From Owenia fusiformis (lineage: Eukaryota; Annelida; Polychaeta; Sabellida; Oweniidae), in contig CAIIXF020000006.1 of NCBI GenBank assembly GCA_903813345.2, positions 40,310,848 to 40,374,847 of the forward strand: 64,000 nucleotides of DNA, in the 5' to 3' direction. Positions 397-51,924 of the stretch are shown in pieces. The notes below the pieces were generated by a model, which did no database searches, had not been told where the DNA came from, and was given only the letters and a program-made list of their open reading frames with translations. Within the stretch, counting starts at the first letter, position 1. Every line of letters begins with the position of its first letter. The translations under genes were made by a program, and so were the position numbers.

Positions 397-1449
397 TGTA
401 TTGTTTGTTAGATATCTGATAGACATGTTCAGGCCCTTTCAAAAAATCATGCATATTAACAGGATCTTAAGAGGTTCTGGACAAATCATTTGATTCTGGA
501 CTTGTCATATTTTTTTTTCAACGAAATCACATCCAAGGGTTGAATTTTTATTAGCTATTTAGAGAGTGAGTCCTGCCTAGTATTAATTTCAATAAAAAAG
601 TTAAAATAGAACCCTATTTGAGAGTCAATCTAATACTTACATTACATTGATAAATTAAGGCAAATCCTGAAATATTTTTAAAGTGCATTTTTTATGAAAT
701 ATTATCCAGCAAGTATTTAAATGAAACGGTCTTATTTAAATACAAATCATAACATGATATTTTTCATGAAACATTTTTCAATGAAATTCAATTGAAGGGT
801 CAAGATAAAACGAGCTAATTTAGGTGAAAACCCTTACATGATGATGTGTTTTCATAACTTCTTTCATAAAATTCCATCAAGGGGTGAAGATAAAATGATC
901 GAATTTAAGTGATTTAAGGATCACGAGAATATGTTTTCTTTGATATTTTCTATGAAATCCCATCCAATGGTCAAGGTAAAATTTTGATTTTGATTTTGAT
1001 TTGGTCACGTGTTCGAAAGATCCATATAAGGCCCATAGAACCATATAGGAACGTCATTTTGAATGTCACATGATAGATCCATATAAGGCTTTTAGAACCA
1101 TTTATGGAAAGATGAGGGGAAGCCCCTGACACCTGTTTCACGATTTTTATGCACTTCATTATTGTACCGAAGTTTGCCGATTCGATTCGTCGTATTTCGG
1201 AATCCTGGTGACAATTTTATACTCCATTGGAGTATTTTTGACCTACTTCTTATGACGGAAATTCCCGAACCTTGTTCGGATTAATCCGGATTTTCTGACC
1301 TACCTTATCTACCGAGATTTCACGAGTTAACATTCGTCTCATTCCGGAATCCTGGTGACAATTTTATACTCCATTGGAGTATTTTTGATCTACTTTTTCT
1401 GGATTTTGCCCTACTTATTATATCTTGACAACAAGCAAATCAAAAAGTT

Positions 1450-1525
1450 CGACATGAACGGGTCTCGATCAACTAACCTAGACTATGGAAGCCAGGCACG
1501 CTAACCATTAGGCCAACGAGCTAGC
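1450..1525 (-). repeat. tRNA-like segment (left-arm copy)
   Basis: Read on the minus strand, it has an A-box-like tggcctaatggttag and a B-box-like gatcgagaccc at about tRNA spacing. The acceptor and T stems do not pair convincingly, so it is read as a SINE-head-like tRNA derivative, not a working tRNA. The mirror copy is at 4142-4217. Confidence 0.4.
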
Positions 1526-1621
1526 GATATGAAAGAACAAAAGTATTATATATTTATACCGAGCGTCAATTCAAAATGATCCTTACTTTTGTCTCCACTT
1601 AAATACGACTCGTCAGTTGTA

Positions 1622-1694
1622 TCCAGAATAGTAGAACGCCTATGGCGCTAGTGAATAACCAAGTCCCAGGTGAGTGGTTCGTATCCCTCCGTGA
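1622..1694 (+). repeat. Second tRNA-like segment (left-arm copy)
   Basis: It contains an A-box-like tatggcgctagtg and a good B-box-like ggttcgtatccc. It faces the opposite way to the tRNA-like segment at 1450-1525 and lies about 100 bp from it. Stems are poor, so it is probably a tRNA-derived repeat. The mirror copy is at 3974-4048 minus. A shorter relative of its 5' flank (actcgtcagttgtatccag) is at about 2546. Confidence 0.35.
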
Positions 1695-1846
1695 TATACT
1701 ATTTTTGTTTTATTAAATACGACAGAAAGGAGCAAGGTGTAGGTTGAAAACAAGACGTTAGTTTGTTTCAAAACAGTTTGGAAACATTAATCTCTGATAA
1801 TTTAAGGTTTTCCACTCCTGAAGGGCCTCTAGATCTATGAAATTCA

Positions 1847-2506
1847 ATAATCCACTCAGTAAAAATACGATTTCTCTGCAACCTGATGTCCAATCAAGAT
1901 CATTCAAATATATATGTGTTCCTGACACGTTTGGGCGTCCGGGAATAAAATTGCTTGTGAAAACTATTTACAAAAGTGTTCCAGAGACCCTTATCTACTT
2001 GGCTAAGGTTTTATTTGAAGATACATTGCCTTATTAGCAGGTAGAGGGGCATACAGAACACAGAAGCAAATGCTATGTTGAAAATTTGCTATATTTCAAT
2101 TTGAACCTGTGTTTACATGTCACGTAGGCCAGTGTTTTATATGGGGATTATATGTACTTTCCTTGTTTACATGAACGTAAATCATTACATGAAATCTGCA
2201 TTCTTCTGGGTTTAATCTGGGTCTGTATTGTCTTATTGGGGCTTTTCGACTTTAAAACAAACCCTACCTAAATGGATTGTGTCTCGGGAACGTTTTTGTA
2301 AATAGTTATTATAAACAATTCTGAAAGAATATCACATATTTTTGTCTTCCCGATTTCAGTCATGAATTACGTCAATTTCCCGTGCAAACATTGGGTAGAC
2401 GTTTTCATAACCGGATGCCCGAACGTGTCAGAAACATATAGATACTCGAATGATGTTGATTGAACATCAGGGTTGAGAGAAATCGTAATTTTACTGAGTG
2501 GCTTCA
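1847..2506. repeat. Inner inverted repeat within the spacer
   Basis: Bases from about 1847 to 1995 pair imperfectly with about 2274 to 2506. Examples are ccactcagtaaaa versus ttttactgagtgg, and aactatttacaaaa versus tttttgtaaatagtt. This palindrome is nested inside the larger 434-5229 inverted repeat and is more diverged than the outer arms. No coding content was recognised. Confidence 0.55.
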
Positions 2507-3143
2507 CGAAAAAATAAGCAGCACTTTAGGCCACCTAAATACAACTCGTCAGTTGTATCCAGTTGGAATCCCAGCGTAATGTTTTTAATTATATGGTTGT
2601 GCTTTGATTTTACGCTGAAAAGATTTATAACTACGTTAACTTTATATTAAAACATTTATTATCTTTTCAGTTGTATTAAAATGTAAAATATGATATATGT
2701 CAGCTTATTGCTTTCTGGAGAACAGTCAAGGTTTAAAGGATCTTGTACACCTGCCATTATGATCTCCCCATTATTTCTACAAGGTGATTCAAAACGATCA
2801 TCTACAAAAAATATATTTGAGAGTAGATAAATCTGTAAAACCCGTGTGCTATATCAGCCTATTTGATTCTAGAAAACACATTTGACACAACTAAACATGC
2901 TTTACATCAAGGGGTACGGATGGTATGCAATTGGCCCTTTTTATTACCGTCCTAGGAGATATTTCCCGACGAATTAGGAAATTATGAAACACCTTGTTTA
3001 TTGGGTTTATAAGTATAAGTATACGTATAAGTTTTTAAAAAACTTATAACGAAAATTCTCTAATAACGCCCCTCATACCTATTTATTACAGGTCGTGTAG
3101 ACCATTGTTGCCTGATTTATAGCAAAAACATTGACTTTTGCAC

Positions 3144-3168
3144 GTTGATGATGATGATGATGATGATG
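3144..3168 (+). repeat. (GAT)n microsatellite
   Basis: About seven consecutive gat/tga triplets. Confidence 0.8.
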
Positions 3169-3973
3169 CGCCTCTTATAATAGATCTCATATCTTAGAAG
3201 CGTATCAGTTCAAAAAATACTAGAAGACCTTACATATTTTGCCATGCACTGCGCCTATTCATTTGGCAATTCAGTTGTAAATTTTATCTTGAAAAAAATA
3301 AATCTTCCAAATTTGTTGAGTTTTCTTGCAGAAATCGCCTACCCCCCCTCCATCCATTTTGTATGATCACAAGGCGTGATTTAAGCTGCTGATATTCTTC
3401 TTTAAACGAGTCGGATTTTCAAAATCTATAAGTTGGACTCCCTTTATAGAAGCTTTGATGCTTAATGCTGAAATTTTATTGTTTATCCATACATTTTAAG
3501 AAAAAATGTATAAAAAAAGATGTTAAAGCCAAATGTTGCCCAGAAAATGTAAAAAATTTCGAATTTTCTATGTACAGGCCTTGTTGCCCCTTTAAGAAGC
3601 TTAATATGTAAATTATCTAATCAAACACTTCGTCCACCATTTTGAAACACTAATCAATCCAATCTGTGCTAGCGATTCATAGGGCGAGCCAGTGGGATAT
3701 TTCCAGGGTTCATACACACCTGGAAATGTCAGGGAAATTGACTTGATTTTCCAAGTGCTGGAAATGTCAGGTAATTTTAAAATTAGGTCAAAAGGGCCAA
3801 AGATGACCGGGAATTTTGAAACGGTAGACATGTCAGGGAAATTTGTATCAGTGTTGAAAAAATAATGTTCCAGAGATTAATGTTTCCAAACTGTTTTGAA
3901 ACAAACTAACGTCTTGTTTTCAACCTACACCTTGCTCCTTTCTGTCGTATTTAATAAAACAAAAATAGTATAT

Positions 3974-4048
3974 CACGGAGGGATACGAACCACTCACCTG
4001 GGACTTGGTTATTCACTAGCGCCATAGGCGTTCTACTATTCTGGATAC
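3974..4048 (-). repeat. Second tRNA-like segment (right-arm copy)
   Basis: Inverted counterpart of 1622-1694, with the same A-box-like and B-box-like motifs on the minus strand. See that entry for the reading as a tRNA-derived repeat. Confidence 0.35.
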
Positions 4049-4141
4049 AACTGACGAGTCGTATTTAAGTGGAGACAAAAGTAAGGATCATTTTGAATTG
4101 ACGCTCGGTATAAATATATAATACTTTTGTTCTTTCATATC

Positions 4142-4217
4142 GCTAGCTCGTTGGCCTAATGGTTAGCGTGCCTGGCTTCCATAGTCTAGGTTAGTTGATC
4201 GAGACCCGTTCATGTCG
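4142..4217 (+). repeat. tRNA-like segment (right-arm copy)
   Basis: Inverted counterpart of 1450-1525. The A-box-like tggcctaatggttag starts at about 4152 and the B-box-like gatcgagaccc at about 4197. Both mirror copies keep the boxes, which is expected if the arms were made by a recent inverted duplication. Confidence 0.4.
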
Positions 4218-5229
4218 AACTTTTTGATTTGCTTGTTGTCAAGATATAATAAGTAGGGCAAAATCCAGAAAAAGTAGATCAAAAATACTCCAATGGAGTA
4301 TAAAATTGTCACCAGGATTCCGGAATGAGACGAATGTTAACTCGTGAAATCTCGGTAGATAAGGTAGGTCAGAAAATCCGGATTAATCCGAACAAGGTTC
4401 GGGAATTTCCGTCATAAGAAGTAGGTCAAAAATACTCCAATGGAGTATAAAATTGTCACCAGGATTCCGAAATACGACGAATCGAATCGGCAAACTTCGG
4501 TACAATAATGAAGTGCATAAAAATCGTGAAACAGGTGTCAGGGGCTTCCCCTCATCTTTCCATAAATGGTTCTAAAAGCCTTATATGGATCTATCATGTG
4601 ACATTCAAAATGACGTTCCTATATGGTTCTATGGGCCTTATATGGATCTTTCGAACACGTGACCAAATCAAAATCAAAATCAAAATTTTACCTTGACCAT
4701 TGGATGGGATTTCATAGAAAATATCAAAGAAAACATATTCTCGTGATCCTTAAATCACTTAAATTCGATCATTTTATCTTCACCCCTTGATGGAATTTTA
4801 TGAAAGAAGTTATGAAAACACATCATCATGTAAGGGTTTTCACCTAAATTAGCTCGTTTTATCTTGACCCTTCAATTGAATTTCATTGAAAAATGTTTCA
4901 TGAAAAAGATCATGTTATGATTTGTATTTAAATAAGACCATTTCATTTAAATACTTGCTGGATAATATTTCATAAAAAAATGCACTTTAAAAATATTTCA
5001 GGATTTGCCTTAATTTATCAATGTAATGTAAGTATTAGATTGACTCTCAAATAGGGTTCTATTTTAACTTTTTTATTGAAATTAATACTAGGCAGGACTC
5101 ACTCTCTAAATAGCTAATAAAAATTCAACCCTTGGATGTGATTTCGTTGAAAAAAAAATATGACAAGTCCAGAATCAAATGATTTGTTCAGAACCTCTTA
5201 AGATCCTGTTATATATGTTTTTTTGAAAG

Positions 5230-8200: not shown

Positions 8201-8873
8201 CGACCAAATTTCCTATCTCCGGATCTAGGAGAGGTATTTACCCACGTTTTTTGTTGTCCGCAAATATAGATATTATATACATCAATTACATTTTGTATCT
8301 TTTTCTGGCTAAGAAAACATTATATGTTGTTTTTAATTGAAAAAGAAGAAAAAAAGTCGCAAAAACCTCATCCTTTTGTTACTATGACCTACTTTTGACC
8401 CAATCTGACCTACTTTTTGAGATTTTAATACACCTCCCTTGAGATATTTGAATGACATATAATACATTAGAGCTACTGGCGTAAATCAAGATTATTTCAT
8501 CGAGTCTATTGCCAAAGGGTGACAACAGTACTGTTGATAGACAGATGCACATAAACAGACTAACAGATAAATGAGTTATTCCAATAGCTCAATTGTAGGT
8601 CCGGGACATGTTACAAAAATGAAACCAAACTGACATAATTATCTAAAGCAAGTATCTGACATGTTGTATGCAAGTATGTGACACTTCATTATAGTATTTT
8701 ACTTGCATTAGATAAATGCAAATGTACATATGTATGAACTTATAATTCATCCATATGTTGGCATAACATAATCAATAACAGTTTGTGATTTAATCGGTGC
8801 AAAAACGGATTTTAAAAAGGCCTTCGCCATTGTTTCGAGCATTTATCTTCGCACTTATATAAGTAATTTAAAC
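8201..8873. other. Upstream region of the glycosyltransferase gene
   Basis: No repeats or ORFs of note. A TATA-like acttatataagt sits at about 8853-8864, only 10-20 bp before the ATG at 8874. That is too close to be the TATA box for this start unless transcription begins inside the ORF, so no promoter is claimed. Confidence 0.4.
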
Positions 8874-14210: not shown

Positions 14211-17200
14211 TAGTGGGGTCAGTTAGCTGTTCTTGCTATATATAAAACAACATTTTCTTGAAATAAGTATCATTAATACATATATTTTTGATATCTAACG
14301 AAGTGGTGTTGAAAAGTGGCCCCAGTTGAAAATAGTAGGCCTCGAAAATTTTGCTCATTTACATTGAGCTCTATGTTAATTTATCAATCTTCAAAAGACC
14401 CCCTGCAGAACAGTTTTAGAGAAATAATACCCATTCTCCTATTATGTTACAATAACATGATTATCTTCAAAATAAGAAGGGTTAAATTTTTTCTTTTACC
14501 TAGTTCCAAAGAAATTGACGTTTGAATTTTGGAAATTCCCCATTGGCTGCCATTATAAAACGGCTATCAATATGGCTTTGCTAAAGTGTCCTTTTCTCAA
14601 AAAGTCCACTGTGAATTTTTTTAATATTGGAGATTTCTATAGTTGATATATTGATTTTAAAAAAATCAAACAGGTACATTTCTAAAAATTTCTTATTTTT
14701 GATATATTTAGCCGTTAAAAACTATAAAAACCTATATTGAGCCCTATGTTAATTTACCAATCTTCAAAAGACTCCCTGCAGATCAGTTTTAGAGTAATAA
14801 TGCTCATTCTCCTAGTATGTTACAATAACATGATTATCTTCAAAATAAGGGGGGTTAATTTTTTTCTTTCACCTAATTCCAAAGATATTGACGTTTGAAT
14901 TTTGGAAATTCCCCATTGGCTGCCATTATAAACGGCTATCAATATGGCTTTGCTAAAGTGTCCTTTTCTCAAAACGTCCACTGTGAAATTTTCTAATATT
15001 GCAGATTTCTATAGTTGATAATATTGATTTTAAAAAAATCAAACAGGCACATTTCTAAAAATTTCTTATTTTTGATATATTTAGCCGTTATAAACTGTAA
15101 AAACCTTTATTGAGCCCCATGTTAATTTATCAATCTTCAAAAGACTCCCTGCAGAACACTTTTAGAGTAATAATGCTCATTCTCCTAGTATATTACAATA
15201 ACACGATTATCTTCAAAATAAGAGGGATTAATTTTTTTCTTTTACCTAATTCCAAAGATATTGACGTTTGAATTTTGGAAATTCCCCATTGGCTGCCATT
15301 ATAAACGGCTATCAATATGGCTTTGCTAAAGTGTACTTTTCTCAAAAAGTCCACTGTGAAATTTTCTAATATTGTAGATTTCTATAGTTGATATATTGAT
15401 TTTTAAAAAATCAAACAGGCACATTTCTAAAAATTTCTTATTTTTGATATATTTAGCAGTTAAAAACTATATTGGGCCCAGTGATAATTTATCAATTTTC
15501 AAAAGATCCCCTGCAGAGCAGTTCAAAAGTGATAAGTCTATATTCCTAGGATGTTACAATAACACAACTCTCTTAATATAAAAAGGATTACATTTTTCTT
15601 TTGCCTAGTTCCAAAGATATAGACGTTTGAATTTTGTAAAAATTTGGCTGCCATTATAAACACCAATCAATGTGGCTTTACTAAAGTGTCCTTTTCTCAA
15701 AAAAGTCCACCATGAAATTTTCTAATATTGTAGATTTCTATAATTAATATGTTGATTTAGAAAAAATCAAATAGGCACATTTCAGCATTTATTTTATTTT
15801 TAATATATTAAGCCATTAAAAAATAAAAAAATATATGGTGCCCCATGTTAGTTTATCAATCTTCAACTAAATGGCTAAATATATTAGAAATAAGAACTTT
15901 TCAGAAAGGTACCTGTTCAATTTTTTTTAAAACAACTTATTAACCATACAAATCTACAATATAAGAAAATTCCATTAGGGACTTTTTGAAAATAGGACAC
16001 TTTAGAAAAGCCATATTGATAGCGGTTTATAATTGCAGCCAAGGGGTATTTTAAAAAATTCAAAGGCAAATATCTTTGGAACCAGGTAAAAGAAAAAACT
16101 CTACACCTTCTTATTTTGAAGATAATCATGTTATTGTAACATACTGAGAGAATGAGTATTATTACTCTAAAACTGTTCTGCGTGAGGTCTTTTGAAGATT
16201 GATAAATTAACATGGGGCTTAATATAGGTTTTTACAGTTTTTAACGGCTAAATATATCAAAAATAAGAAATTTTTAGAAATGTACCTGTTTGATTTTTTT
16301 AAAATCAATATATCAACTATAGAAATCTGCAATATTAAAAAATTTCACAGTGGACTTTTTGAGAAAAGGACACTTTAGCAAAGCCATATTGATGGCCGTT
16401 TATAATGGCAGCCAATGGGGAATTTCCAAAATTCAAACGTCAATATCTTTGGAATTAGGTAAAAGAAAAAAATTAACCCCTTCTTATTTTGAAGATAATC
16501 ATGTTATTGTAACATACTAGGAGAATGAGCATTATTACTCTAAAACTGTTCTGCAGGGGTTCTTTTGAAGATTGATAAATTAACTTTTTGAGAAAAGGAC
16601 ACTTTAGCAAAGCCATATTGATAGCCGCTTATAATGGCAGCCAATGGGGAATTTCCAAAATTCAAACATCAATATCTTTGGAATTAGGTAAAAGAAAAAA
16701 ATTAGCCCCTTTATTTTGAAGATAATCATGTCATACTAGGAGAATGAGCATTATTACTCTAAAACTGTTCTGCAGGGGGTCTTTTGAAGATTGATAAATT
16801 AACATGGGGCTCAATATAGGTTTTTATAGTTTTTAACTATTAAATATATCAAAAATAAGAAATTTTTAGAAATGTACCTGTTTGATTTTTTTAAAATCAA
16901 TATATCAACTATAGAAATCTGCAATATTAGAAAATTTCACTGTGGACTTTTTGAGAAAGGACACTTTAGCAAAGCCATATTGATAGCCGTTTATAATGGC
17001 AGCCAATGGGGAATTTCCAAAATTCAAACGTCAATATCTTTGGAATTAGGTAAAAGAAAAAAATTAACCCCTTCTTATTTTGAAGATAATCATGTTATTG
17101 TAACATACTAGGAGAATGAGCATTATTACTCTAAAACTGTTCTACAGGGGTTCTTTTGAAGATTGATAAATTAACATAGGGCTCAATATAGGTTTTTATA

Positions 17201-17728
17201 GTTTTTAATGACTAAATATATCAAAAATTAGAAATTTTTAGAAATGTACCTGCTGGATTTCTTTAAAATCAATATATCAACTATAGAAATCTGCAATATT
17301 AGAAAATTTCACAGTGGACTTTTTGAGAAAAGGACACTTTAGCAAAGCCATATTGATAGCCGTTTATAATGGCAGCCAATGGTGAATTTCCGAAATTCAA
17401 ACGCCAATATCCTTGGAAATAGGAAAAATAAAAAATGTAACACTTTTTATTTTGAAGATAATCAGGATATTGTAACATCCTGGGAATATGGGCTTTATTT
17501 CTAAAGAACTGTACTGCAGGGGGTCTTTTGAAGATTGATAAATTAACATGGGGCTCAATGTAAATATGCAAATTTTTCGAGGACTGCTTTTTTCAACTGG
17601 GGCCAATTTTCAACACCACTTTGTTAGATATCAAAAATATAAGCAATAATGATACTTAGGTCAAAAAACTGTGCTTTATATATAGCAAGTGCAATTCAAG
17701 GGTTTTATTGTCATAACTGACTGCACTA
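14211..17728. mobile_element. Foldback-like element of 373-bp units in two opposed arrays
   Basis: A unit of about 373 bp is repeated head to tail. The anchor ggctgccattataaa starts at 14545, 14918, 15291 and 15646 (spacing 373, 373, 355). Beyond the centre at about 15868 the same unit appears in reverse complement, with anchors at about 16026, 16399, 16629, 16990 and 17362; one unit is cut to 230 bp. The outer ends are single-copy inverted repeats: tagtggggtcagttag at 14211 against taactgactgcacta ending at 17728, then tatatataaa and gttgaaaagtggcccc mirrored by ggggccaattttcaac. The taa flank on both sides allows a TA or TAA duplication. Open frames inside are chance products of the AT-rich unit. 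Long terminal inverted repeats made of tandem units are the plan of foldback (FB/TU-type) transposons. Confidence 0.8.
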
Positions 17729-19094: not shown

Positions 19095-19983
19095 CACCCT
19101 TGGTATACGCAGCTAACGAAAATTGACCGGTACGTGTCAAAAGCTGGACCGGTACGGGTTAACGGTTTTATTTGAATTTAAAATAGCCATAACTTGCTCA
19201 ATATTGACTTCCTCGTGTCTAATTTGAAATATATGATGCCTCCCGATGCTTTTAAGTACCCCAATTTTTTACAGATTTTTAAACGGACCAAAACTCTCTA
19301 AATGCGCATTTATGCTCTTTTCTCTCGAGAACGACTGTCTCATTTTCACGATAACTTTTATTTAGTACTTCTAACATATAAGATCTATTTTTCCCCATCA
19401 AGGTATGATGTAAATGACATGCTATTTACATCTTGTGAGTTTCAATGACGCGCGTTTGATTTTATAAAAAATGCCAAACTTTGTGACAAAGAATTTCATC
19501 CTGCTTGCATCGAGAAGACGGACCGGTTCGGGGCAATCTGTTTGCAGCGAGAAGACGGACCGGTTCGGGGCAATAGCTGATGAAATTCTTTGTCACAAAG
19601 TTTGGCATTTTTATAAAATCAGACGCGCATCATTGAAACTCACAAGATGTAAATAGCATGCCATTTACATCATACCTTGATGGGGAAAAATAGATCTTAT
19701 ATGTCAGAAGTACTAAATAAACGTTATCGTGAAAATGAGACAGTCGTTCTCGAGAGAAAAGAGCATAAATGCGCATTTAGAGAGTTTTGGTCCGTTTAAA
19801 AATCTGTAAAAAATTGGGGTACTTAAAAGCATCGAGAGGCATCATATATTTCAAATTAGACACGAGGAAGTCAATATTGAGCAAGTTATGGCTGTTTTAA
19901 ATTCAAATAAAACCGTTAACCCGTACCGGTCCAGCTTTTGACCCGTACCGGTCAATTTTCGTTAGCTGCGTATACCAAGGGTG
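19095..19983. mobile_element. 889-bp palindromic transposon with 5-bp target-site duplication
   Basis: The ends are cacccttggtatacgcag and its exact complement ctgcgtataccaagggtg, flanked on both sides by gcctt (19090-19094 and 19984-19988). The inverted arms 19095-19500 and 19579-19983 are about 405 bp and nearly identical. The 78-bp centre is two direct copies of a 37-bp unit (19502-19538, 19539-19575) with the core agaagacggaccggttcggg. No transposase is present. A 5-bp duplication and ends beginning CAC are compatible with Transib-type or 5-bp hAT elements; the superfamily is undecided. Confidence 0.85.
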
Positions 19984-24427: not shown

Positions 24428-25753
24428 TCAGAGATCATTAACACTAGAACTTCTTGGATACCCCTCGTATTTCTTTTCAAAGTCACTAGTGGAGGAATGG
24501 GGAGTCATTGTGTTGAGTGTTATAGAAAGGCCAGTAATGGAAGTCAAGGACGTCTTCCTTGTGAAAAGAACAGATATAAAAGCCTTGACTGCCTTTCTAA
24601 ACTCAACGTGAGCAACCGCGTATAAAAAGAAATTGAGGGCAAGGTTGAGGGCTAAAAAGAGATCGCAAATACACGTTGCTATGACAAAATTATCGCAATA
24701 TAATTCATCACGATCTCGAAATTTTAACATTAATATATTCAAAACAACGGCGGGTCCCTGGCAGATAATGAATGACGCGTTCACGGCGATAATTGTGATC
24801 GTTATTCGGTCATTTCGCCGTCTTCTACTGTTTCTAAGTTTTCTATATTGAGCAGACGCCCTTGATTCCATTCGGCTTCCGCGGACTTTTTTCCTCAAGG
24901 ACATTAACAGTGACGTACTGAGCACAAAACACATGAACCAAGGGAGAAATATATTAAGGACAACCCTCGTTGGATAATATACATTGTTAAACAGTTTGTT
25001 GGAGTAAAATTCAGTCGATTCGATAATTTGGTATGTCATATTTAGATGCTTGATGGGCCTCACTGTCTTCATAAAACAATCCGGAATGTTGAGAACAAGC
25101 GAGTAAACAAATATAAGCGTGATTGTCACTTGGGCCTTGCGGGGAGTGCAGAAAGTGTTCGCTTTTAATGGCAGCCTTACAGCCACATATCTAAAGATTG
25201 TCACCCCAGAAGCTAACGCATTTGATGCTGTGAGGAAAACATTAGTTGGAATGTTAAATACTGCGTAAAATAACTTCCAGGCAATCGGGATTTGTGCAAG
25301 CCATCGGACATCACGATTTTCCAACCATAGCCATTTGTAAGAACTGTAAAAGTATGTGAACGAGACCAGTAGGGTAATGAGGCCACTGGAATCCGCTATA
25401 ACCATTCCCACCAGAAACATTGTTGTGACATTTCTCATATGCGGCCGAGTAAAGATAACTAGAGTGACGATATTCGCTAGAATCCCAACAACACAAATTA
25501 TTGGAATTATAATTCCTCGAGTTATGAACTGTATTTTGATTCTGAGCTCTGTGTCTTGCCAATCGCATGTTCCATCAAGGTCATTAGATAGCGTTGGATC
25601 TTCTGTGGCGTTCATAGAATAGATGGCGCTGTTGAAGTGTTTCGAAGCCTCGGTATCAATTGTATGAATAACATCCATATTCGTTATTTCGTGACTAAGA
25701 TAATGTGGTCTATCCATTCTAGTGGCACTTATATTATTTGTTATGTTAAACAT
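24428..25753 (-). CDS. Rhodopsin-family peptide GPCR, FMRFamide-receptor-like
   Basis: A single uninterrupted ORF of 441 residues. The extracellular N-terminus (1-78) has N-glycosylation sites at N3, N7 and N48. Seven hydrophobic segments follow. TM1 is about 80-102 with the conserved N94, and TM2 about 112-134 with D121. TM3 ends in FRYVAV (R188) in place of DRY. TM4 is about 208-226, TM5 about 262-287. Loop 3 is highly basic (RKLRNSRRRRND). TM6 has FIICQGPAVVLN, with Gln332 where many receptors have the toggle Trp and with P334. TM7 ends in NFFLYAV, in place of NPxxY. The CQxPA, YVAVRLPLKA and NIPDCF features are typical of invertebrate FMRFamide/myosuppressin-type receptors. The Cys normally at the top of TM3 is absent and none is seen in loop 2. 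The C-tail is Ser/Thr-rich. The first ATG was taken as start; M13 or M26 are also possible. It should sit in the plasma membrane and signal through a G protein. The ligand is unknown. Confidence 0.88.
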   Translation of the reverse strand: MFNITNNISATRMDRPHYLSHEITNMDVIHTIDTEASKHFNSAIYSMNATEDPTLSNDLDGTCDWQDTELRIKIQFITRGIIIPIICVVGILANIVTLVIFTRPHMRNVTTMFLVGMVIADSSGLITLLVSFTYFYSSYKWLWLENRDVRWLAQIPIAWKLFYAVFNIPTNVFLTASNALASGVTIFRYVAVRLPLKANTFCTPRKAQVTITLIFVYSLVLNIPDCFMKTVRPIKHLNMTYQIIESTEFYSNKLFNNVYYPTRVVLNIFLPWFMCFVLSTSLLMSLRKKVRGSRMESRASAQYRKLRNSRRRRNDRITITIIAVNASFIICQGPAVVLNILMLKFRDRDELYCDNFVIATCICDLFLALNLALNFFLYAVAHVEFRKAVKAFISVLFTRKTSLTSITGLSITLNTMTPHSSTSDFEKKYEGYPRSSSVNDL

Positions 25754-27139
25754 TCCAATTACTTTGGAAAAAAAACAATTCCAATGTTGTGGGTGAAAGA
25801 TCTGCTGTCTTCTTTGAGGCTACAATTCTGGAAGTAGATGTACAAAAAGAATTAATTGATTACATAATAATCGAAATAACGCCAGCACAACTTTTCGTTT
25901 TTTAGTTCAGTAGGCAGTAAATACATGTAGCATATTGTCTGAAAGTAAGGTGTCTCTACAATATTACATTTATTTTTCAAAATGGCGTCTTGTCTCAAAG
26001 CAGAGACATATTTCTATGTCTCTGCTCAAAGGAGCACCATAATTTGCAAATGTCATATAGATATCTAAGTTATAACTGAAGTTTTGCCATTTCGGTTTTG
26101 GTTCATATTTAAATATAGCATGGTTGCCCGGCCGCTTCTTAACAATGTGTCTTGAAAAATTATTTAGGCCTTGTACACGATAAACTCAAGTACCGCAATT
26201 GAGTATTTATCAATGATTTTTTATACATTTACTGTCGGTGATTGAAGAACGGACAACAACAATAACATTTTCCATGATTAAGTGAGGAATTTACGACTTG
26301 TCGTCAGTGGTTTACTTATTTATTCCTAGTGGATTATCTTTATAACAAAGTCAACACTCGTGTCATGAATAAATTGCTAAGAAATGTGCCAGAGAGTTAA
26401 TTGAGATAGTTGTTAATCTAGTTGTTTGAATAATGTATACACTTTCAATTTGCCTTTACTGACATTTTATTCATGGATCAGTAGATAGTACAATAACATT
26501 GTAATTGGTTCGAATAACTTGTACATATCTTCAAGTGTAACATACCTATCAAATTAATTGCCTAGATACAAATGAGTTATAGCAGGGCTATAAATACTCG
26601 TATTCCATCTGATGAGGTACTACAGTAGGTATATTGTACGGGAATGTACTAGTATCTACTATCTAGGGAGCAGGTTTTAAACCGACATGATTATGGAACT
26701 CTGATACTTGAAGAAAAACAAGTTTATATAATTATGAGATCCTAGAACAATGGGCATCTTACAACATGATTCATAACGATTCAAATTGATGGCTTACAAT
26801 AACAATGACATAATATTTTTGAACTAACAATAGATTTAAAAGGCGATGTCAAGAGATAATTGAAGGTGATAGATTAAAAGGAGGGTAAGACAATCGACTT
26901 CCTCTTATCAAAGTAATGTATTGTTTAGCCATCACACTTACTTATCCATCAGTTCTTAGACAATAGCACGCAAGGTTGTCATAGTCTCAGAACTTTCAAG
27001 AACCTTTTACCAAGCATGCATCAACTTCATGATGCTGTGCAATAATGTAATGTTGCGTCACAACGTTGTTATACATGACATCTCTGGTGTTTCTCTGTAA
27101 CTGCCATATGATCATGTTAGTTTTTTGAATAGTTATATT
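25754..27139. other. Region upstream of the GPCR
   Basis: No repeats, exons or clear promoter motifs were recognised. A short inverted pair, agcagagacata and tatgtctctgct at about 25999-26025, forms a strong small hairpin of unknown meaning. Confidence 0.45.
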
Positions 27140-32932: not shown

Positions 32933-34765
32933 TATCATAAACGAGGCAAGAGGCGAGAGTTTTCAAAAGATTCATATTTTTTTATATAAAGAAGTGTGTA
33001 ACCCCGGTGTGTTACTAAAAACGTTGTTGCATCGAGATTAAGTAAAAGAACCATGAGAGTTATTACAAAATATATATAGAATGGTCTAAGGATGAAATAA
33101 CAAAATCTCTTCTTCTATTAAAATTCGATCTTGACTATCAGCTTTCATGATATGGTGCCAATAGATTCTAATTGAAATGATTTAGTTTGTATGGTACACG
33201 TATATGACATGACTTGAAATATTCATTTTAAGAGTCACTTGCGAAATTTCTTGATCGTCCCTTTTATATTCAGGTTCATTACAAATCAAAAGAGGGAGGT
33301 AGTGTAACGGTAGCTACAATTCGCAACTACTTTGACTAAAAATTGAGCTGATACAGTTGACATTAAACCTACTCAGTAGAGATCTGTTATCTAGAGCACT
33401 CTAATTTTAACAACTAATTGCTATTCATGTAATACTTGGCCATATTGCATTCTTCAAATACGGATAAACACAGACGTGAGCTTTTAAAAAGCTTATAATG
33501 ACAACTGCACTAACAGAGTGTGAGATTCGAACTAGTTATTAACAAAACTTTCGATAAAATGTGTTGTAACAAGATCAGCTGGAAATCTAGTGTTGTATTC
33601 TAATTGATCACATTAGGGTGCGGGCAGGGCATCGTGGGGGTTTACTAAATACAGACTACCGAAGGCGAGTATCACTGCAAAAGGGTTGGTCTAATTTTAC
33701 ACCCCATTGTTAAAATAACGGCTTTTCTACAAAGGGTAAGGCCCATCGTCGAGGTTGGCCCATGGGCCCATAGGAACAGAAAATATATCAACTAGAATAT
33801 AAACATAATTGCGCCATGCCGTTAGTTTCCATTATATTTTTAATTACTTGCGGGTTATCTCTACGGCGTTTAGGTCTATGACCAGAACATATATCAACTA
33901 GAATATAAACATTATCACTCTACTATACCTTGCATTGGGTGTTCATGAGCAACCCTTTTGGCTTATTAGTGATGATTATGTTATTTGTTTTCATTTGTCT
34001 GCTCCTTATTAATGGTTTATCGGATGACGTTAGATGTTAATAAAGTACTTTCAAAAATATACTAAACAATACAATTGGACAAACAGAGTATCTTATGCAT
34101 TTCTAGGGCTTAGGTATAGTAGAGTGATTATCGCGCCAAGCCGTTATTCTCCATTTGATTAATACATAGATATATAGCGGGTAATCTCTGCTAATCTCTA
34201 CGATAGTGAAGGTCAAAATAATGTATTGCATCGTCAAATAATATTTTGTCAGAAATTTCTGCCTTCGATGCCACGCGTTTACATATTATTAATAAGCTAC
34301 TCAGAATTTAATAATATAAAATGTATGTACTGTGTATTATATTATCTATAAAAAACAGCAGGTACTAGTATGTTATCGCAAACAATTTCAGACAATTCCA
34401 CCTTGAATTATGATTTTTTCTGATCATTAAAGTACCTTTTAGACCTTTTTATCATCTCAAAGAAAGGTGTTTTTAGAATGATAATTTTAAATTCAATCAA
34501 ACTAAGTGATATTAAATGGGAAACCCTTTTTAAGAATCACAAGACAAAATCGTATGGAATAAATTGCAATAAGATGGTTATTAAGCTTGTTATTATGGTC
34601 TTACTAGTGGTTATTATTGAGTAATGGTACAGGTATCCGATATGGTATTGCAGCTTACACTTAAGTAATGGTACACGTATCCTTGGATTTTAGGCCCGAA
34701 TACCGAGGTTTATTTTTTTGATTATCGTGTATTATTATTTTGTGTTAATATTAGTTAACCATCTA
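32933..34765. other. Gene-free region
   Basis: No gene recognised. The phrase atatatcaactagaatataaacat occurs at about 33785 and 33891, and gcgcca(t/a)gccgtta at about 33812 and 34132, which shows local duplication. The remainder is unremarkable AT-rich DNA. Confidence 0.45.
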
Positions 34766-34774
34766 ACTATTGGC

Positions 34775-34859
34775 TACCCTTTGCATTTGTTTGACTTCAC
34801 TTCTTAAAATAGAGCTTCGTCTTGTAGTTTAACTACATGTAGACTCTGCACGCAGGGTA
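34775..34859 (-). mobile_element. 85-bp micro-MITE, copy 1, 9-bp TSD
   Basis: The ends are taccctttgca and tgcacgcagggta, flanked by perfect 9-bp direct repeats actattggc at 34766-34774 and 34860-34868. It is the reverse complement of the copies at 35401 and 36517. No coding capacity. Confidence 0.85.
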
Positions 34860-34907
34860 ACTATTGGCATGATATTGATAACCTTGCTATATTAATATAG
34901 CGCATAG

Positions 34908-35165
34908 GCGTAGCCAGGGGGATGCGATGGGATGTGATTGGATGCGATCGCACCCCCCCCCCCTCCATAACCAATGGAAATAGAACCATTAGATAGAAGA
35001 GAAAAGTCTTAAAATGCTTTTTTTGAAGCTTCTAGCTCGATTTTGAACGAAGTTGCACCAATTTTTGTAAAATTCAAAACAAATCTTCAAAAACATTTTT
35101 AATGCCACGATCGCACCCCTCCCCCCCCCCCCCCCCCCCCCGACTGAAAGCTGGCTACGCCACTG
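34908..35165. mobile_element. hAT-like MITE (GGCGTAGCCAGG ends)
   Basis: The left end cataggcgtagccaggggg is mirrored by the right end gctggctacgccactg. Both ends carry gcgatcgcacccc and long C runs (35110-35140). Single left or right ends of the same kind lie at about 38224 and 48190. The TSD could not be resolved. Confidence 0.6.
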
Positions 35166-35400
35166 TAACGTGTAATCAATACGCTACATTTTGTATGTTC
35201 AATTTGTATACTAAAAACTGTTATTAATCCACAGATTTAGATGAAGACAAGATAAAAATCCGAATCAAGAATGAAAAGGTGTCTAAGTATATAAATCTTA
35301 AGGGTAATGCATATTTGAATTAAACAGAGGCGGGTTAATTTATATTGTACTATGAATTACGCTATTATTCAAAATTGCAGCTAAGATGCCTGTTTTATGA

Positions 35401-35488
35401 TACCCTGCGTGCAGAGTCTAGTTAAACTACGTATACACTAAGACGAAGCTCTCTTTTAAGAAGTGAAGTCAAACGAATGCAAAGGGTA
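35401..35488 (+). mobile_element. 88-bp micro-MITE, copy 2, 9-bp TSD
   Basis: It begins taccctgcgtgcagag and ends tgcaaagggta, flanked by perfect 9-bp repeats gttttatga at 35392-35400 and 35489-35497. The interior contains agacgaagctctc and agaagtgaagtc, shared with the other two copies. Confidence 0.85.
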
Positions 35489-35497
35489 GTTTTATGA

Positions 35498-36330
35498 AAA
35501 ATATCACGAAAGATGTATTCTAGATATCAGTAGTATTCTCAGAAATTTATTATCCGAAACGGATAACATGTGGCCACTCAGACAAACAATCGCAGACATA
35601 GGCTAAGCTTGTTTATTTAACAGTTAGATTTGTTGACTTACCGATCCGTATTTCAATCTCCGGGAAGACGTTCTTTTCACTTTGTATTTGCGTGCAGTGT
35701 AATATAAGTTGATACTTTTGTTCAAAAATGTACTTTTAATGGCCATTTTATGCCTTTTATTTTCAAATTATGTTTTGATGTAAGTGTGAAAAGTCAAGAA
35801 ACGTCAACCCCGACTTTTAATTAAAAAATGTTGGTTAATCACTTATGGCAAATCACAAGGTTGATGATGTCAACGGACCATGATCGTGGAAGGCTATCAA
35901 TATCAGGTGTATATCGGATAGAAAATAAATATAGATAATTTTTCGCACTGATATGATGATGACTATTCTGGCGAATCGGGTAGATATTTCTCAGTTTTTT
36001 CCGATAATAAAACTATTCATTTCTATCAATTTAACAAACAGGGTCCTTTGAATGCACATTAAAACTATAAAAGTATTTATTGGGCGTACATACTCGTTCT
36101 GTCATGTTACTTTCATTTCATTTGCAAGTTGTCCACATATTAATCCAGCGTTTTGTTTAATCAAATTTCCCGCCCCTTGAGGTTTCCGACTGTAAAACTT
36201 AATATTTAATACTAACCAATGCATCAGTTAATATTTTCAGAATACAAATTTTCCATTTTTATTTCTCTGATAGATAAAGTCTCATTTTGAATCTGTTCGT
36301 GTATTAAAGAGTATGCTTTTATAATGCCGT
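35498..36330. other. Stretch without recognised features
   Basis: No gene, RNA or repeat supported. Confidence 0.45.
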
Positions 36331-36458
36331 GGTCACATTTGCTCAGATTTTCAGCACCGGCGCCCGGCCGATGAGTATTTTGTTCAAAATTGTATTCAAT
36401 TCTGAACAAGATACTCAATCGGCCGGGCGCCGTAATGAAAATCGGAGCAAATGTTACC
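36331..36458. mobile_element. 128-bp hairpin MITE
   Basis: A nearly complete palindrome. The left arm has ggtcacatttgctc and ggcgcccggccgatgagtat; the right arm has atactcaatcggccgggcgc and gagcaaatgttacc. The GC-rich cggcgcccggccg block stands out from its AT-rich setting. The open frames on both strands are by-products. Confidence 0.7.
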
Positions 36459-36516
36459 AAGTCATAACTGATGAAAAATCAAATGAGAACATGAACATGG
36501 ATAATAGGGGCACTAT

Positions 36517-36600
36517 TACGCTGCGTGCAGAGTCTAATTATAAACTACGAGAAGACGAAACTCTCATTTAAGAAGTGAAGTCGAACAAATGCAAAGGGTA
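36517..36600 (+). mobile_element. 84-bp micro-MITE, copy 3, 9-bp TSD
   Basis: It begins tacgctgcgtgcagag and ends tgcaaagggta. The flanks are gggcactat (36508-36516) and gggtactat (36601-36609), 8 of 9 matching. Same family as 34775 and 35401. Confidence 0.8.
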
Positions 36601-36867
36601 GGGTACTATAGAAGGGGATCATATAAAAGCACGATCTATTTTACAACGCCTTTAAGTTTTGTTGCCCTTTGTGCATTTCAAAAATAAAATATCTTAATCT
36701 GATTTGTTCCACCTTTCTTTTCGCTCAGTTCTGCAATATTATGTCCATATGTTGTTTAGGATTATGTCATTTGCGAAATAGCTAGCTGTAAGACATTATG
36801 AGAATGAATATGGGAGTTTCCACGATAATGTTGTTCACATGATTTTATACACATACCTGCACAACAA

Positions 36868-44374: not shown

Positions 44375-45059
44375 CACCCTATGCTAAGTGAGCGGACCTA
44401 ATTTCAAGGGTGATGGTAAAGACGAGGCAGGGCGCCCAAACCTAACTATGGCGGACCAGCAGTAAGTTTATTTCTCTAAGTTCTACTCTTTATTGGCCTT
44501 GTGCTGGCCTGTAACTAGTAGTCCGGATGTGAAGTGCCATATTTTAAGTGAAGGTGGAAATGCTTATTATATGAACTTTTTTTGCATTTTCTGTTTAAAC
44601 ATGATATCCATATTCAGAAACTGTCGGATGCCCAACGAGCATCCTTGAGGAATTTTTTTGGCAGCCATTTTGAATTTTCACACGTTTTATGTATTTAAGC
44701 CAGCATATTAAAACAGAAAACTAGCATACACATAAACAAATCTTGCTGTTTTTTCTATAATAGAGTTCTAATATGATATATACCAATATGTTAGGTTCCA
44801 GAAATGTTTCTTGACAAAAATAAAAAAAAATTCAAGATGGCCGCCAACCTTACAATTTATGAAATGTCTCATTCTGTGATAATATCAAATTGATATAAGT
44901 GTTTCCTACAAAATTATCAATAAATAATACTAAATACATCTGATTATGATCTCTTTCTCACATATAAAATATCTGAAATGAATAAAAAGTAACCTACATA
45001 ATAATAATGATGTTCCACAAGGGTCATTTCTTGGTGCTATATATATCTTGAATTTATGA

Positions 45060-45853
45060 ATTATCTTCTTTTACTAAGATTTCATCAAGGATTTCCCTCA
45101 ATAAATCCTCATCAGTTTCTTCCAATTATTGTTCAGTTACTGTATTTGTATGTTGTTATTGCATTCATTTCCCTTGCAAACACAGAACAATGTACATGAT
45201 AAAGATGCCTTGGAGCATGAACATCGCCCAGTTCTACATACATTGCCCTCTGATGCACTTAATGAGCTGGAGAATTCCTTCAGGGGCACAGGGTGTATCC
45301 TTGGACATTGTTGTTGGGACAAGTGAGCCCCTGCTGTTAATTTTCCAACCATAATCTGTTGGAAGGATAAGTGGGGGGTCAGGCATATCAGCATTTTTCC
45401 ATACAGCTACTTGGAAATGAGCTGCTTCACATGCTAGGAAAATGCTTCTGTTGTTGGTGGGAGGGATTTTAGCTTTGGTGCATTTGTAATGTGTTTTGCA
45501 GCATTTTATTTGCCCATACAGTATACAGTATATTGAGCTTGAGATGACCTGGTGCTGTTCTTTATGCTATTGTCTTTATATCTGTCAAAGATAAGGTATA
45601 CATCTGATTCGGTTAGGAGTCTCAGGATGTACTTAGTAAAAGCAATACAGAAGTTTTCAATTTTGCCAGCCATCGGCCATGTTATGATCAAAAGGATGGC
45701 ACACCCATCAACGACACGTACATTGCAATTGTTTCCTCTTGAGGCCACCTCAATCTGTAACTTTTGTTTCAGTGTTGATTTTGAAGTTGTGATATTAATT
45801 TCTCCATTTTCATCAAATAGTGATGATGGAGGGAACATCGTCTGGCCGAGCAA
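45060..45853 (-). pseudogene. Broken copy of a CXC-domain transposon-type protein (minus strand)
   Basis: On the minus strand, 45853-45506 is an open 115-codon frame with VYLIFDRYKDNSIKNSTR near its end (residues about 86-103). That FDRY...SIK...TR phrase is familiar from large multi-copy proteins of invertebrates. The frame stops at 45506. Beyond it, 45500-45060 is a decayed duplicate of the C-terminal half found at 46190-46601, with stops and frameshifts (a 6-base deletion in the Cys-rich part and further substitutions). The middle of the protein, with the HGLSGSD motif, is absent here and present only on the plus strand. This is a rearranged relic, not a working gene. Confidence 0.6.
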
Positions 45854-46601
45854 ACATTAACATTAATGTAACCGTAAATGAACACAAATTAAAAATCCCA
45901 AACTTGTTAGCTGTGCATGGTCTCTCTGGCAGTGATACGACATCTTGCATCCATGGAATTGGCAAGCTAACAGTCCTGAAGGTGTTAAATAGATACTCAC
46001 TCGCTAACTTGGGAGATGTCAATGCAGACATAACTGAAGTTGAGAAAACTTCAACAGAATTTGTTTCTAGATGTTATGGAATTACACCTAAAGTCACAGA
46101 CAAAATGTCTGATGTGAGATATGCTGTATGGGCAAAGAAAATGCTGCAAAACACATTACAAATGCACCAAAGCTAAAATCCCTCCCTTCAACAACAGAAG
46201 CATTTTCCCAGCATGTGAAGCGAGCTCATTTCCAAGTAGCTATATGGAAAAATGCTGATATGCCTGACCCCCCACTTATCCTTCCAACAGATTATGGTTT
46301 GGAAATTAAGAGCACGGGCTCACTTGTCCCAACAACAATGCCCAAGGATACACCCTGTACCCCTGAAGGAATTCTCCAGCTCATTAAGTGCACATGTGCA
46401 TCAGAGGGCAATGTATGTGGAACTGGACGATGTTCATGCTCCAAGGCATCTTTATCATGTACATTGTTCTGTGTTTGCAAGGGAAATGAATGCAATAACC
46501 AACATACAATGACAGTAACTGAACAGGAATTGGAAGAAACTGATGAGGATTTATTGAGGGAAATCCTTGATGAAATCTTAGTAAAAGAAGATAATTCATA
46601 A
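45820..46601 (+). pseudogene. CXC-domain transposon-type protein, middle and C-terminal part, frameshifted
   Basis: Two overlapping plus-strand frames make one protein. Frame one (45820-46176) has LLAVHGLSGSDTTSCIHGIG, a signature of multi-copy invertebrate proteins usually written HxLSGCDTTS. Frame two (46128-46601) has FSQHVKRAHFQVAIW, then a Cys-rich segment from about residue 88, with CTC, CGTGRCSCSKASLSC, CVC and NECNN, which looks like a tesmin/TSO1-type CXC zinc-binding repeat. An acidic tail follows. Moving from one frame to the other needs a shift near 46130-46176, so the copy is broken unless a short intron is present. The start given is the first ATG of the open frame; the true N-terminus is missing. 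The GSD...GIG spacing also recalls the helix-turn segment of FEN/XPG nucleases, but that is speculation. Function and element class are unknown. Confidence 0.6.
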
Positions 46602-47639
46602 ATTCAAGATATATATAGCACCAAGAAATGACCCTTGTGGAACATCATTATTATTATGTAGGTTACTTTTTACTCATTTCAGATATTTTATATGTGAGAA
46701 AGAGATCATAATCAGATGTATTTAGTATTATTTATTGATAATTTTGTAGGAAACACGAATATCAATTTGATATTATCACAGAACGAGACATTTCATAAAT
46801 TGTAAGGTTGGCGGCCATCTTGAATTTTTTTTTATTTTTGTCTAGAAACATTTCTGGAACCTAACATATTGGTATACATCATATTAGAACTCTATTATAG
46901 AAAAAACAGCAATATATGTTTATGTGTATGCTAGTTTTCTGTTCTAATATGCTGGTTAAAATACATTAAACGTGTGAAAATTCAAAATGGCCGCCAAAAA
47001 AATTCCTCAAGGATGCCCGTTGGGCATCCGACAGTTTCTGAATATTGATATCATGTTTAAACAGAAAATGCAAAAAAAGTTCATATAATAAGCATTTCCA
47101 CCTCTATTGGCTCTACATCCAGACTATAGGTGCACTGATGCTTCAGATGCCCATAATTAGATTTGTAATGTAAGAAAGATTCATACTTATATGTGAAACG
47201 GATACGAAGTGATGTGAAAAGAAAAATTAATTTTCTGCATATTTTTTTCGATTATTTTCAAAATAATGATACTTCTCCTGCATAGAATTCCTTGATATTG
47301 CATGTAATTATTGTTGATGAACGTATTTGTATCGTAAACCCATCCTTTTCCCAATTTGAGCCGTAATTGCAGTCAAATCAGGAGATTTTGATTCCTCGAA
47401 AGGAAGAGCAATGGTTATGGTAATAAAAGCATGTTTGGACGAGCCGTGGAATAGGGATTACATTTATCCTGTTTATTTTCAGATATGTGGGATTCCAGTG
47501 TTACTACTGTAGTAGGGGAGGGGGTTCCATGTCTGCTAATTTCTGTGAATTTGTGGTATGTTGGGTCCAAATTTAAAAAAATCTGCCCAAATAAATGAAT
47601 TTGGTCTTGGGATACTTTACCTATTTTTTGCTTTTGCAA

Positions 47640-48178: not shown

Positions 48179-48287
48179 GAACCCCCCCCCTGACAAATCC
48201 TGGCTACGCCACTGCTACTGTCACGGAAAATCAAAAGACTTTGATGAAATAATACACCACCTGATCAATAAACACCCTACAAATGAA

Positions 48288-49324
48288 ATGAAAATTCGAA
48301 AAATCGTTAATGTCAACGGAATAATAAAATTAATTACAATAAATTTTTCTCATGTGGTTCCTGAAGAAATTAAAGCAAGTGGCAAGAGGATTGTGGTGTT
48401 ACGCGGTAAACACGATACAAAAATATGTCATATTCCGCAACGAATATGGCATATTCACTTGCGGTGTATGACAGATTCACCTGCGGTATATGGCATACAC
48501 ACTAACCAATGAGAACGTGATACGGAAGTACGCAATTGTCAATTGCATCTATTGAACGAACAAGTACAAAACGTTATAAATTATTAAAATGATTACTGAA
48601 TCAAACATTATTGAATATATTAACTTAGCAGAAGTATCAGTCGTGTAATAAACTTACTCAATCAATCCAGGATTCATATATAAGTACTCGACGCACTAAC
48701 TATAGTGGTAATCCAGCGTAGTTTTACATTTAGAGTCGAATTTCGCAACCAATCAAATCAAAGCTTTCTGTATCACGTTTTCACCTGCGGTATATGTCAT
48801 ATTCACCTGCGGTATATGGCATATTCCGCAAGTGAGTATGACATATTCTGCAGGTGAGTATCGGGTATTCACTGAAATCAATGTATCGCATATTCACTGC
48901 GGAATATCGCATACTCACCTGCGGAATATGCCATATACCGCAGGTGAGTATGGCATATTCACCTGTATCACAAATACCGCGCAACCATGAATGTATGCCA
49001 TATATCGCGTAACATGTGGTACAAGACAAGGAGTCAATGACAATTTCTATAACCCAATCCTCAAGTGATTCTCATGTCTTGAAATGCTCTAAATTAGTTG
49101 ACACTACACCAGTTAAGCATTATGCAACATTAAACAATGAAATAAACAATGAAATTGAATGTAATGAAATGGACAATGACAATGAAATAGAAAATAGAAA
49201 TGAAATGAGTGATAGTATAAATATGACATCTAATGATAACAATAGCAATAATGATGCAGCTACAGATGAAAACAACGACGAGTTGTTAAGAGAATTTGCT
49301 GACTGTCAGATGATGGATCTTTGA
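48288..49324 (+). pseudogene. Unrecognised ORF split by a MITE insertion
   Basis: The reading frame 48288-48395 (ending SGKRIVV) is interrupted by the insertion 48397-49014. It resumes in the same frame at 49016 (VVQDKES...) and runs to a stop at 49322-49324. Removing the element and one copy of its 5-bp target duplication leaves one continuous frame of about 138 codons, and the frame is open further upstream to about 48214. The second half is rich in Asn, Glu, Asp and Ser (NNEINNEIE, DNDNEIENRNE) and ends REFADCQMMDL. No family was recognised. Its place inside the 44375-50740 element suggests an element gene or a captured exon. It is listed as broken because the inserted DNA carries stops. 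Confidence 0.5.
48397..49014. mobile_element. 618-bp MITE with 5-bp TSD, inserted in an ORF
   Basis: The ends are tgttacgcg and cgcgtaaca, flanked by tgtgg at 48392-48396 and 49015-49019. The sub-terminal parts are full of the motif cacctgcggtatatggcata in both directions (48430-48500 and 48781-48975), so each side folds on itself. No coding content. Confidence 0.8.
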
Positions 49325-50654: not shown

Positions 50655-50806
50655 GTACTAATATTCTTTGGTTTTTGGGCGCCATGCCTCGTCTTTACCA
50701 TCACCCTTGAAATTAGGTCCGCTCACTAAGCATAGGGTGGGATCTGTTACAGTATATTGGTTCTTAATAAGCTGTATCGGGGTATTTTAAGTGGGATTCC
50801 AATATA

Positions 50807-51885
50807 CGAGGGTTGATCAGGAATTTCTGGACCGTTGGCTCTATTTTTGCCATTTTTTTTATCCTTTCTTGATGATTTTTTCACACAATATAACCCAAAT
50901 ATATAGGATCACACCATGAATATTTCACTGTTCTATGACATCATTATCCTTTTATTCTTGCAACCATGGTAACCGATGACGCGACAAGGTGGAGCTCAGA
51001 AAAAATAACAAATTTGAAAAATCAACAGTAGTTTTATATGATGTTTGGACACTGTATTCATTGCTGAATATGTGTGTATGTATACTGTAATGGGTTGTAT
51101 TATATCATGAACTACATTCATTAATGTAACATTCATTAATGTTTATAGTAACTGTCATTATTCTTCCAACAATTGTAATCCTTCAAAGTAGTTACAAGAA
51201 TTTTGTAAGCATTTGTCATGAAAGGCTTGATACAGACCGTCTTTGCCTACAAAATGTGATTGTTTCCATCGGTTGTGGCCATGTACCACACACACCGTAT
51301 CTCCCAGAATTAGCAGGGTGTGATTTCTATCTTTTCCCAACAGTGAAGAACAAATTATGAGGTATCCACTTTGAGGACATTACTGAGATCATTCAGGAAT
51401 TCACACACCATTCACAGGAATTCACACACGTTACAAAGTAGGCAAAGGCGGTCTGTATCACGTCTTTCAGGACTGGGTGAAAAGGCATAACAAATGCTAA
51501 CAAAGTGCTGGTAACTACTTTGAAGGATTAGAATTGATGGAAGAATAATACTAGTTACTATGAACATAAATGAATATACTTAATGAAATAATACAACCTA
51601 TACATTATGTCAAATATTCAGCAATGAATACAGTGTCCACGTGTGTCTTAACATCATATAAAATTACTGTAGATTTTTCAAATTTTGGTATTTTTCTGAG
51701 CTCCACCTTGTCGCGTCACAAGTTACCATGGTAACAAAAATAACAGGATAATAATGTCATAGATCAATGAAATCTTCATGGTGTGATCCTATATATTTGG
51801 GTTATATTATGTGAAAAATCATCAAGAAAGGATAGAGAATGGCAAAAATAGAGCCAACGGTCCAAAAATTCCTGATCACCCCTCG
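50807..51885. mobile_element. Self-complementary mariner-type element remnant
   Basis: The ends cgagggttgatcaggaattt and aaattcctgatcacccctcg are flanked by TA (50805-50806, 51886-51887), as in Tc1/mariner elements. The arms at 50807-51258 and 51441-51885 are inverted copies of each other over about 450 bp. Both contain the transposase C-terminus, facing opposite ways. Confidence 0.75.
51295..51545 (+). pseudogene. Mariner transposase C-terminal fragment
   Basis: At 51295-51357 the plus strand reads PYLPELAGCDFYLFPTVKN, matching the PYSPDLAPCDFFLFPKLK segment of mariner-type transposases, followed at once by a stop (51358-51360). The frame goes on as GIHFEDITEIIQEF. The region 51441-51545 reads LYHVFQDWVKRHNKC, a stop, then GNYFEGLEL, matching the family's C-terminal W...KC...GDYFEGL block. 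At least two stops and the lack of the N-terminal DNA-binding and first catalytic parts show that it is dead. Confidence 0.75.
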
Positions 51886-51924
51886 TACATTACATTAATC
51901 GAATAGTCTTAAGCAACATAAAGC

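Follow-up and report, generated by a model that had tools for sequence, protein, structure and literature searches.

The window, by which we mean the whole 64-kb stretch of Owenia fusiformis DNA that was analysed, has a GC content of 34.7% and contains open reading frames, large inverted repeats and a group of three short repeated units. An uninterrupted reading frame of 463 aa on the minus strand (24431–25819) matches the rhodopsin-type receptors (7tm_1, E 2.2e-17), which points to an animal source, and a frame of 363 aa at 8772–9860 matches PF03407, a family of nucleotide-diphospho-sugar transferases (E 6.6e-5). A large inverted repeat spans 436–5229, with arms at 436–1796 and 3871–5229 around a spacer of 2074 bp. 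The arms are nearly identical (100% over 1109 nt after rounding, with a few mismatches in the alignment), and a target duplication was not identified. The structure may stem from assembly or represent a recent long-TIR element. A repeat array whose members recur about every 373 bp, in both orientations, occupies 14245–17677. Further inverted repeats lie at 50801–51891 (arms of about 390 bp, left end AATATACGAGGGTTGA) and at 44519–47126, where the arms are about 1 kb long and one protein fragment (AHFQVA.WKNADMPDPPLILPTDYG) is found on both strands; four reading frames scanned in the latter repeat gave no Pfam match above the cut-off. The region 19095–19983 forms an 889-bp palindrome whose arms of about 405 bp are 98% complementary over 376 nt. 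It ends in CACCCT...AGGGTG and has a possible 5-bp flanking repeat, GCCTT; its end hexamer agrees at five of six positions with that of the short units described below, whereas the duplication length differs.

The three short units lie within 1.9 kb of the 64-kb window. Copy 1 is located at 34775–34859 on the minus strand (85 bp), copy 2 at 35401–35488 on the plus strand (88 bp) and copy 3 at 36517–36600 on the plus strand (84 bp); this placement, with the strands and lengths, had been given in the original prediction and proved exact on inspection of the sequence and by BLAST. No fourth copy was detected in the window by BLAST at E values up to 10. Other matches to the unit in the window cover 10–15 bases at E 0.059 or worse, and control searches with reversed queries returned matches of 11–15 bases with a best E of 0.015. 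Two other features are found close to the units. Between copies 1 and 2, the segment 34907–35161 is bounded by GGCGTAGCCAG and CTGGCTACGCC, contains two C-rich tracts and is perhaps another small transposon. About 50 bp before copy 3, hairpin-like arms of 69 nt, 75% complementary and 4 nt apart, occupy 36324–36465.

Comparison of the three copies reveals two conserved blocks surrounding a variable centre. The left block comprises 20 bp with 0–1 mismatches between copies (35401–35420, plus strand, in copy 2), and the right block comprises 49 bp with 2–4 mismatches between copies (35440–35488, plus strand, in copy 2; BLAST E 1e-18 to 7e-14 between copies). Copies 1 and 2 differ at 2 of the 69 positions across these end blocks. 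The centre measures 15–19 bp and differs by several small indels around an AAACTAC core that is common to the copies. The ends were originally described as TACCCT, paired with AGGGTA at the other end, which holds for copies 1 and 2; in copy 3 the left end reads TACGCT and the right end AGGGTA. The inverted repeat consists of this terminal hexamer alone, with 6/6, 6/6 and 5/6 positions paired in copies 1, 2 and 3, respectively, and positions 7–30 of the two ends pair at 6, 7 and 8 of 24, about the level of chance. Since the inverted repeat stops after the hexamer, the two ends of the unit are unlike. Because the three copies share descent, the agreement of the terminal hexamers should be taken as a single observation. 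By itself, TACCCT is no more frequent in the window than expected (19 occurrences against 20.9). From the pattern of sequence conservation we infer that the short left block and the longer right block are the ends that a transposase binds, each presumably recognised as such; the unit has almost no spare sequence.

Each copy is flanked by a direct duplication of 9 bp, as had been predicted. The duplication of copy 1 is perfect (ACTATTGGC at both 34766–34774 and 34860–34868), as is that of copy 2 (GTTTTATGA at both 35392–35400 and 35489–35497), while copy 3 matches at 8 of 9 positions (GGGCACTAT at 36508–36516 and GGGTACTAT at 36601–36609). When flank lengths of 5–13 were tried for each copy, 9 was the only length to match, and the boundary of the match was common to the three copies. 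By eye, the repeat of copy 1 may alternatively be read as 10 bp long by counting the terminal A as part of it, a reading that copies 2 and 3 do not allow. We estimated the chance of such flank matches from positions across the window at spacings of 80–95 bp, where 9/9 identity occurred at a rate of 1.0e-4 and 8/9 at 4.2e-4. These rates are so low that three duplications at one offset are not due to chance; the rough product for the three is about 5e-12, a figure that assumes independence and applies to a length picked from the nine tried. Read along the element, each of the three duplications starts with G (GCCAATAGT, GTTTTATGA and GGGYACTAT), which at three sites is only a hint of a target preference.

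Outside the units the flanks are unrelated, with 25–35 of 100 positions identical between copies, and BLAST of the 150-bp flanks of different copies gave matches of only 9–10 bases (E 0.09–0.37). Duplications at a common boundary within unrelated flanks indicate that the unit itself moved, three separate times. Movement of the units as such, which the original prediction took the duplications to prove, is therefore strongly supported. A competing account of the repetition is that each unit is a fragment of a longer repeat, or that a single segment was multiplied by local duplication in the absence of transposition. It would suit the close spacing of the copies, since three points placed at random in 64 kb come as near to one another in only 0.22% of draws, a figure to be read in the knowledge that the cluster was picked out in hindsight. 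However, the flanks outside the units show no homology, and local duplication sits badly with a different 9-bp duplication at each copy and with the inversion of one copy relative to the other two; we regard it as extremely unlikely. Constant inclusion in a longer repeat had been named in advance as one of the results that would overturn the prediction, and within the window no such inclusion is seen.

The cluster had also been taken to suggest local hopping. Since their centres differ by separate indels, the copies are not simply recent descendants of each other; for this reason, and because it was noticed afterwards, the cluster is not good evidence that one copy seeded the others. Copies 1 and 2, with so few differences in their end blocks, may reflect an old local transposition, and an insertion bias or chance may also lie behind the cluster.

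What we observe directly is a discrete unit with conserved ends and a variable centre, inserted at three unrelated sites with a 9-bp duplication at each. The units are best explained as one family of very short non-autonomous DNA transposons (MITEs), moved in trans by a DDE-type transposase with a 9-base stagger, a reading to which we assign a probability of roughly 0.88. MITEs are characterised by small size, a lack of coding capacity and flanking duplications of one length, and 84–88 bp leave no room for a coding region. A transposase encoded elsewhere would bind the two unlike conserved ends and cut at the terminal hexamers, in a cut-and-paste manner. The 84–88-bp segment would then be inserted where the two target strands have been cut 9 bases apart, and repair of the staggered target would leave the 9-bp duplication. 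The MITE reading rests on three copies that are related by descent.

Short, repeated units with flanking duplications might also be retroposons of a SINE-like kind. Against this, the duplications are of a single length in 3/3 copies, the terminal hexamers form an inverted match, the units have no A-rich tail, and the window holds no tRNA and no Rfam match at the gathering score. A retroposon origin is thus barely credible. We also considered a role as structured RNA or as hairpin DNA. Single-strand folding of the units is unremarkable (five DNA foldings, with z between -0.84 and 1.71), with 37 to 196 of 200 shuffles folding at least as well, and together with the lack of an Rfam match this led us to reject such a role.

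Assignment of the MITE family to a superfamily is less secure. The 9-bp duplication had been taken to point to a Mutator-like (MULE) or another transposase of 8–10-bp stagger. As a pointer to Mutator in particular this inference is too narrow, because Merlin and hATm elements share the length. In the available part of a survey of MULEs (PMC6446971), duplications of 8–11 bp are given, a range that includes the 9 bp observed here; several MULE groups are listed there without a TIR, and the TIR-bearing MULEs that were analysed have TIRs of 14–500 bp. The 6-bp inverted repeat of our units falls between these two classes. Among the groups in that part of the survey, Curupira has a 9-bp duplication like the units and is listed without a TIR, and the MULE-Mollusca group is likewise listed without a TIR, its duplication length not being indicated (PMC6446971). 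MULE-Cg, which is also molluscan, carries TIRs of 48 and 296 bp (PMC6446971), as against the 6-bp inverted repeat found here. The non-TIR MULE groups are defined by their transposase genes, and none ties the units to those groups. For maize Mu, a target consensus of SWNNNNNWS is given in the available text of PMC2774946. By eye none of the three duplications follows this consensus; MULEs as such are not defined by it. We tentatively favour a short-TIR or non-TIR MULE as the leading guess, ahead of an atypical hAT element or Merlin, with odds well short of even. A superfamily other than these three has a somewhat better chance, not far below even.

A hAT affiliation would make the units hAT-superfamily MITEs, moved by a hATm-like transposase that produces 8- or 9-bp duplications. 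The general end motif of hAT elements is YARNG, and it occurs at none of the six unit ends. The hATm group, as described in the available part of PMC6004678, agrees with the units in making duplications of 8 or 9 bp, and by our own comparison its TAGGGTG terminus and TACCCT share a layout of TA, a triplet of one base and T. However, the hATm ends are TAGGGTG...CACCCTA (PMC6004678), as opposed to TACCCT...AGGGTA in the units, and none of the six unit ends carries the hATm sequence, with 3–5 of 7 positions matching. We therefore consider the hAT reading unlikely. Derivation from Merlin, whose duplications are also 8 or 9 bp long, might draw some support from one reported Merlin family in which the 5' end differs strongly from the 3' end (PMC8101967, available part). 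However, the same text gives Merlin ends as starting with 5'-GG, which is seen at 0/6 unit ends, and Merlin TIRs as 24–462 bp long, far from the 6-bp inverted repeat of the units. Merlin-derived MITEs are accordingly a very improbable identification.

A longer element with the same ends, encoding a transposase, had been proposed as a check on the family, and we searched the window for one. With at most one mismatch per hexamer and ends 40–20,000 bp apart, 13,568 end pairs were obtained. Apart from the three units, four of these reach 8/9 in their flanking 9-mers and none reaches 9/9, whereas the null rates predict about seven pairs with at least 8/9; no longer element beyond chance was thus found in the window. 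A de novo scan for a 14-bp inverted repeat (at most three mismatches) with an exact 9-bp duplication, over lengths of 50–6000 bp, found no element, and by design is blind to units with a 6-bp inverted repeat. The same scan gave 22 matches with an 8-bp duplication and 10 with a 10-bp duplication, most of which by eye are palindromic words in long inverted repeats or lie in a tandem array near 48 kb.

We scanned 19 of the 59 stop-to-stop reading frames of at least 80 aa in the window against Pfam, and none of these 19 matched a transposase family. The only families above the cut-off were 7tm_1, 7TM_GPCR_Srw and Nucleotid_trans; sub-threshold matches at E 0.02–0.07 include a C2H2 zinc finger at 48180–48509. 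Exact-pattern scans with left-end, right-end and both-end patterns returned nothing from viral contigs or prokaryote genome contigs, as expected for a eukaryotic repeat, and blastn of 34760–36610 against phage records gave no match. When four stretches of the unit were sought in literature text, only the 10-mer GCAGAGTCTA occurred among the matches listed, and none of these has a transposon as its subject by title.

The original prediction placed units of under 90 bp near the lower limit for a mobile element. They are indeed small, yet their size is not exceptional when set beside MADE1, a human MITE derived from mariner. Mariner elements duplicate TA. The MADE1 elements resemble the units in carrying no gene and are 80 bp long, according to the available part of PMC9062482. 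They hold two 24-bp TIR elements (PMC9062482), whereas the units have a 6-bp inverted repeat and a 9-bp duplication. As known now, the units are one more small MITE family, ordinary in kind, and slightly unusual only in their ends, which fit neither the hATm nor the Merlin motif, and in their very small size. It is improbable, more so than the hAT reading, that they represent an undescribed group of DNA transposons. Such a group would combine TACCCT ends and an inverted repeat of 6 bp with a 9-bp cut and two dissimilar recognition ends, one of about 20 bp and the other of about 49 bp, and in an element compressed to about 85 bp nearly the whole sequence would be transposase binding site. Should the family prove abundant, its copies of 85 bp would place a lower bound on the size of element for a transposase that cuts with a 9-bp stagger, and would reveal the end sequences that are sufficient for mobility.
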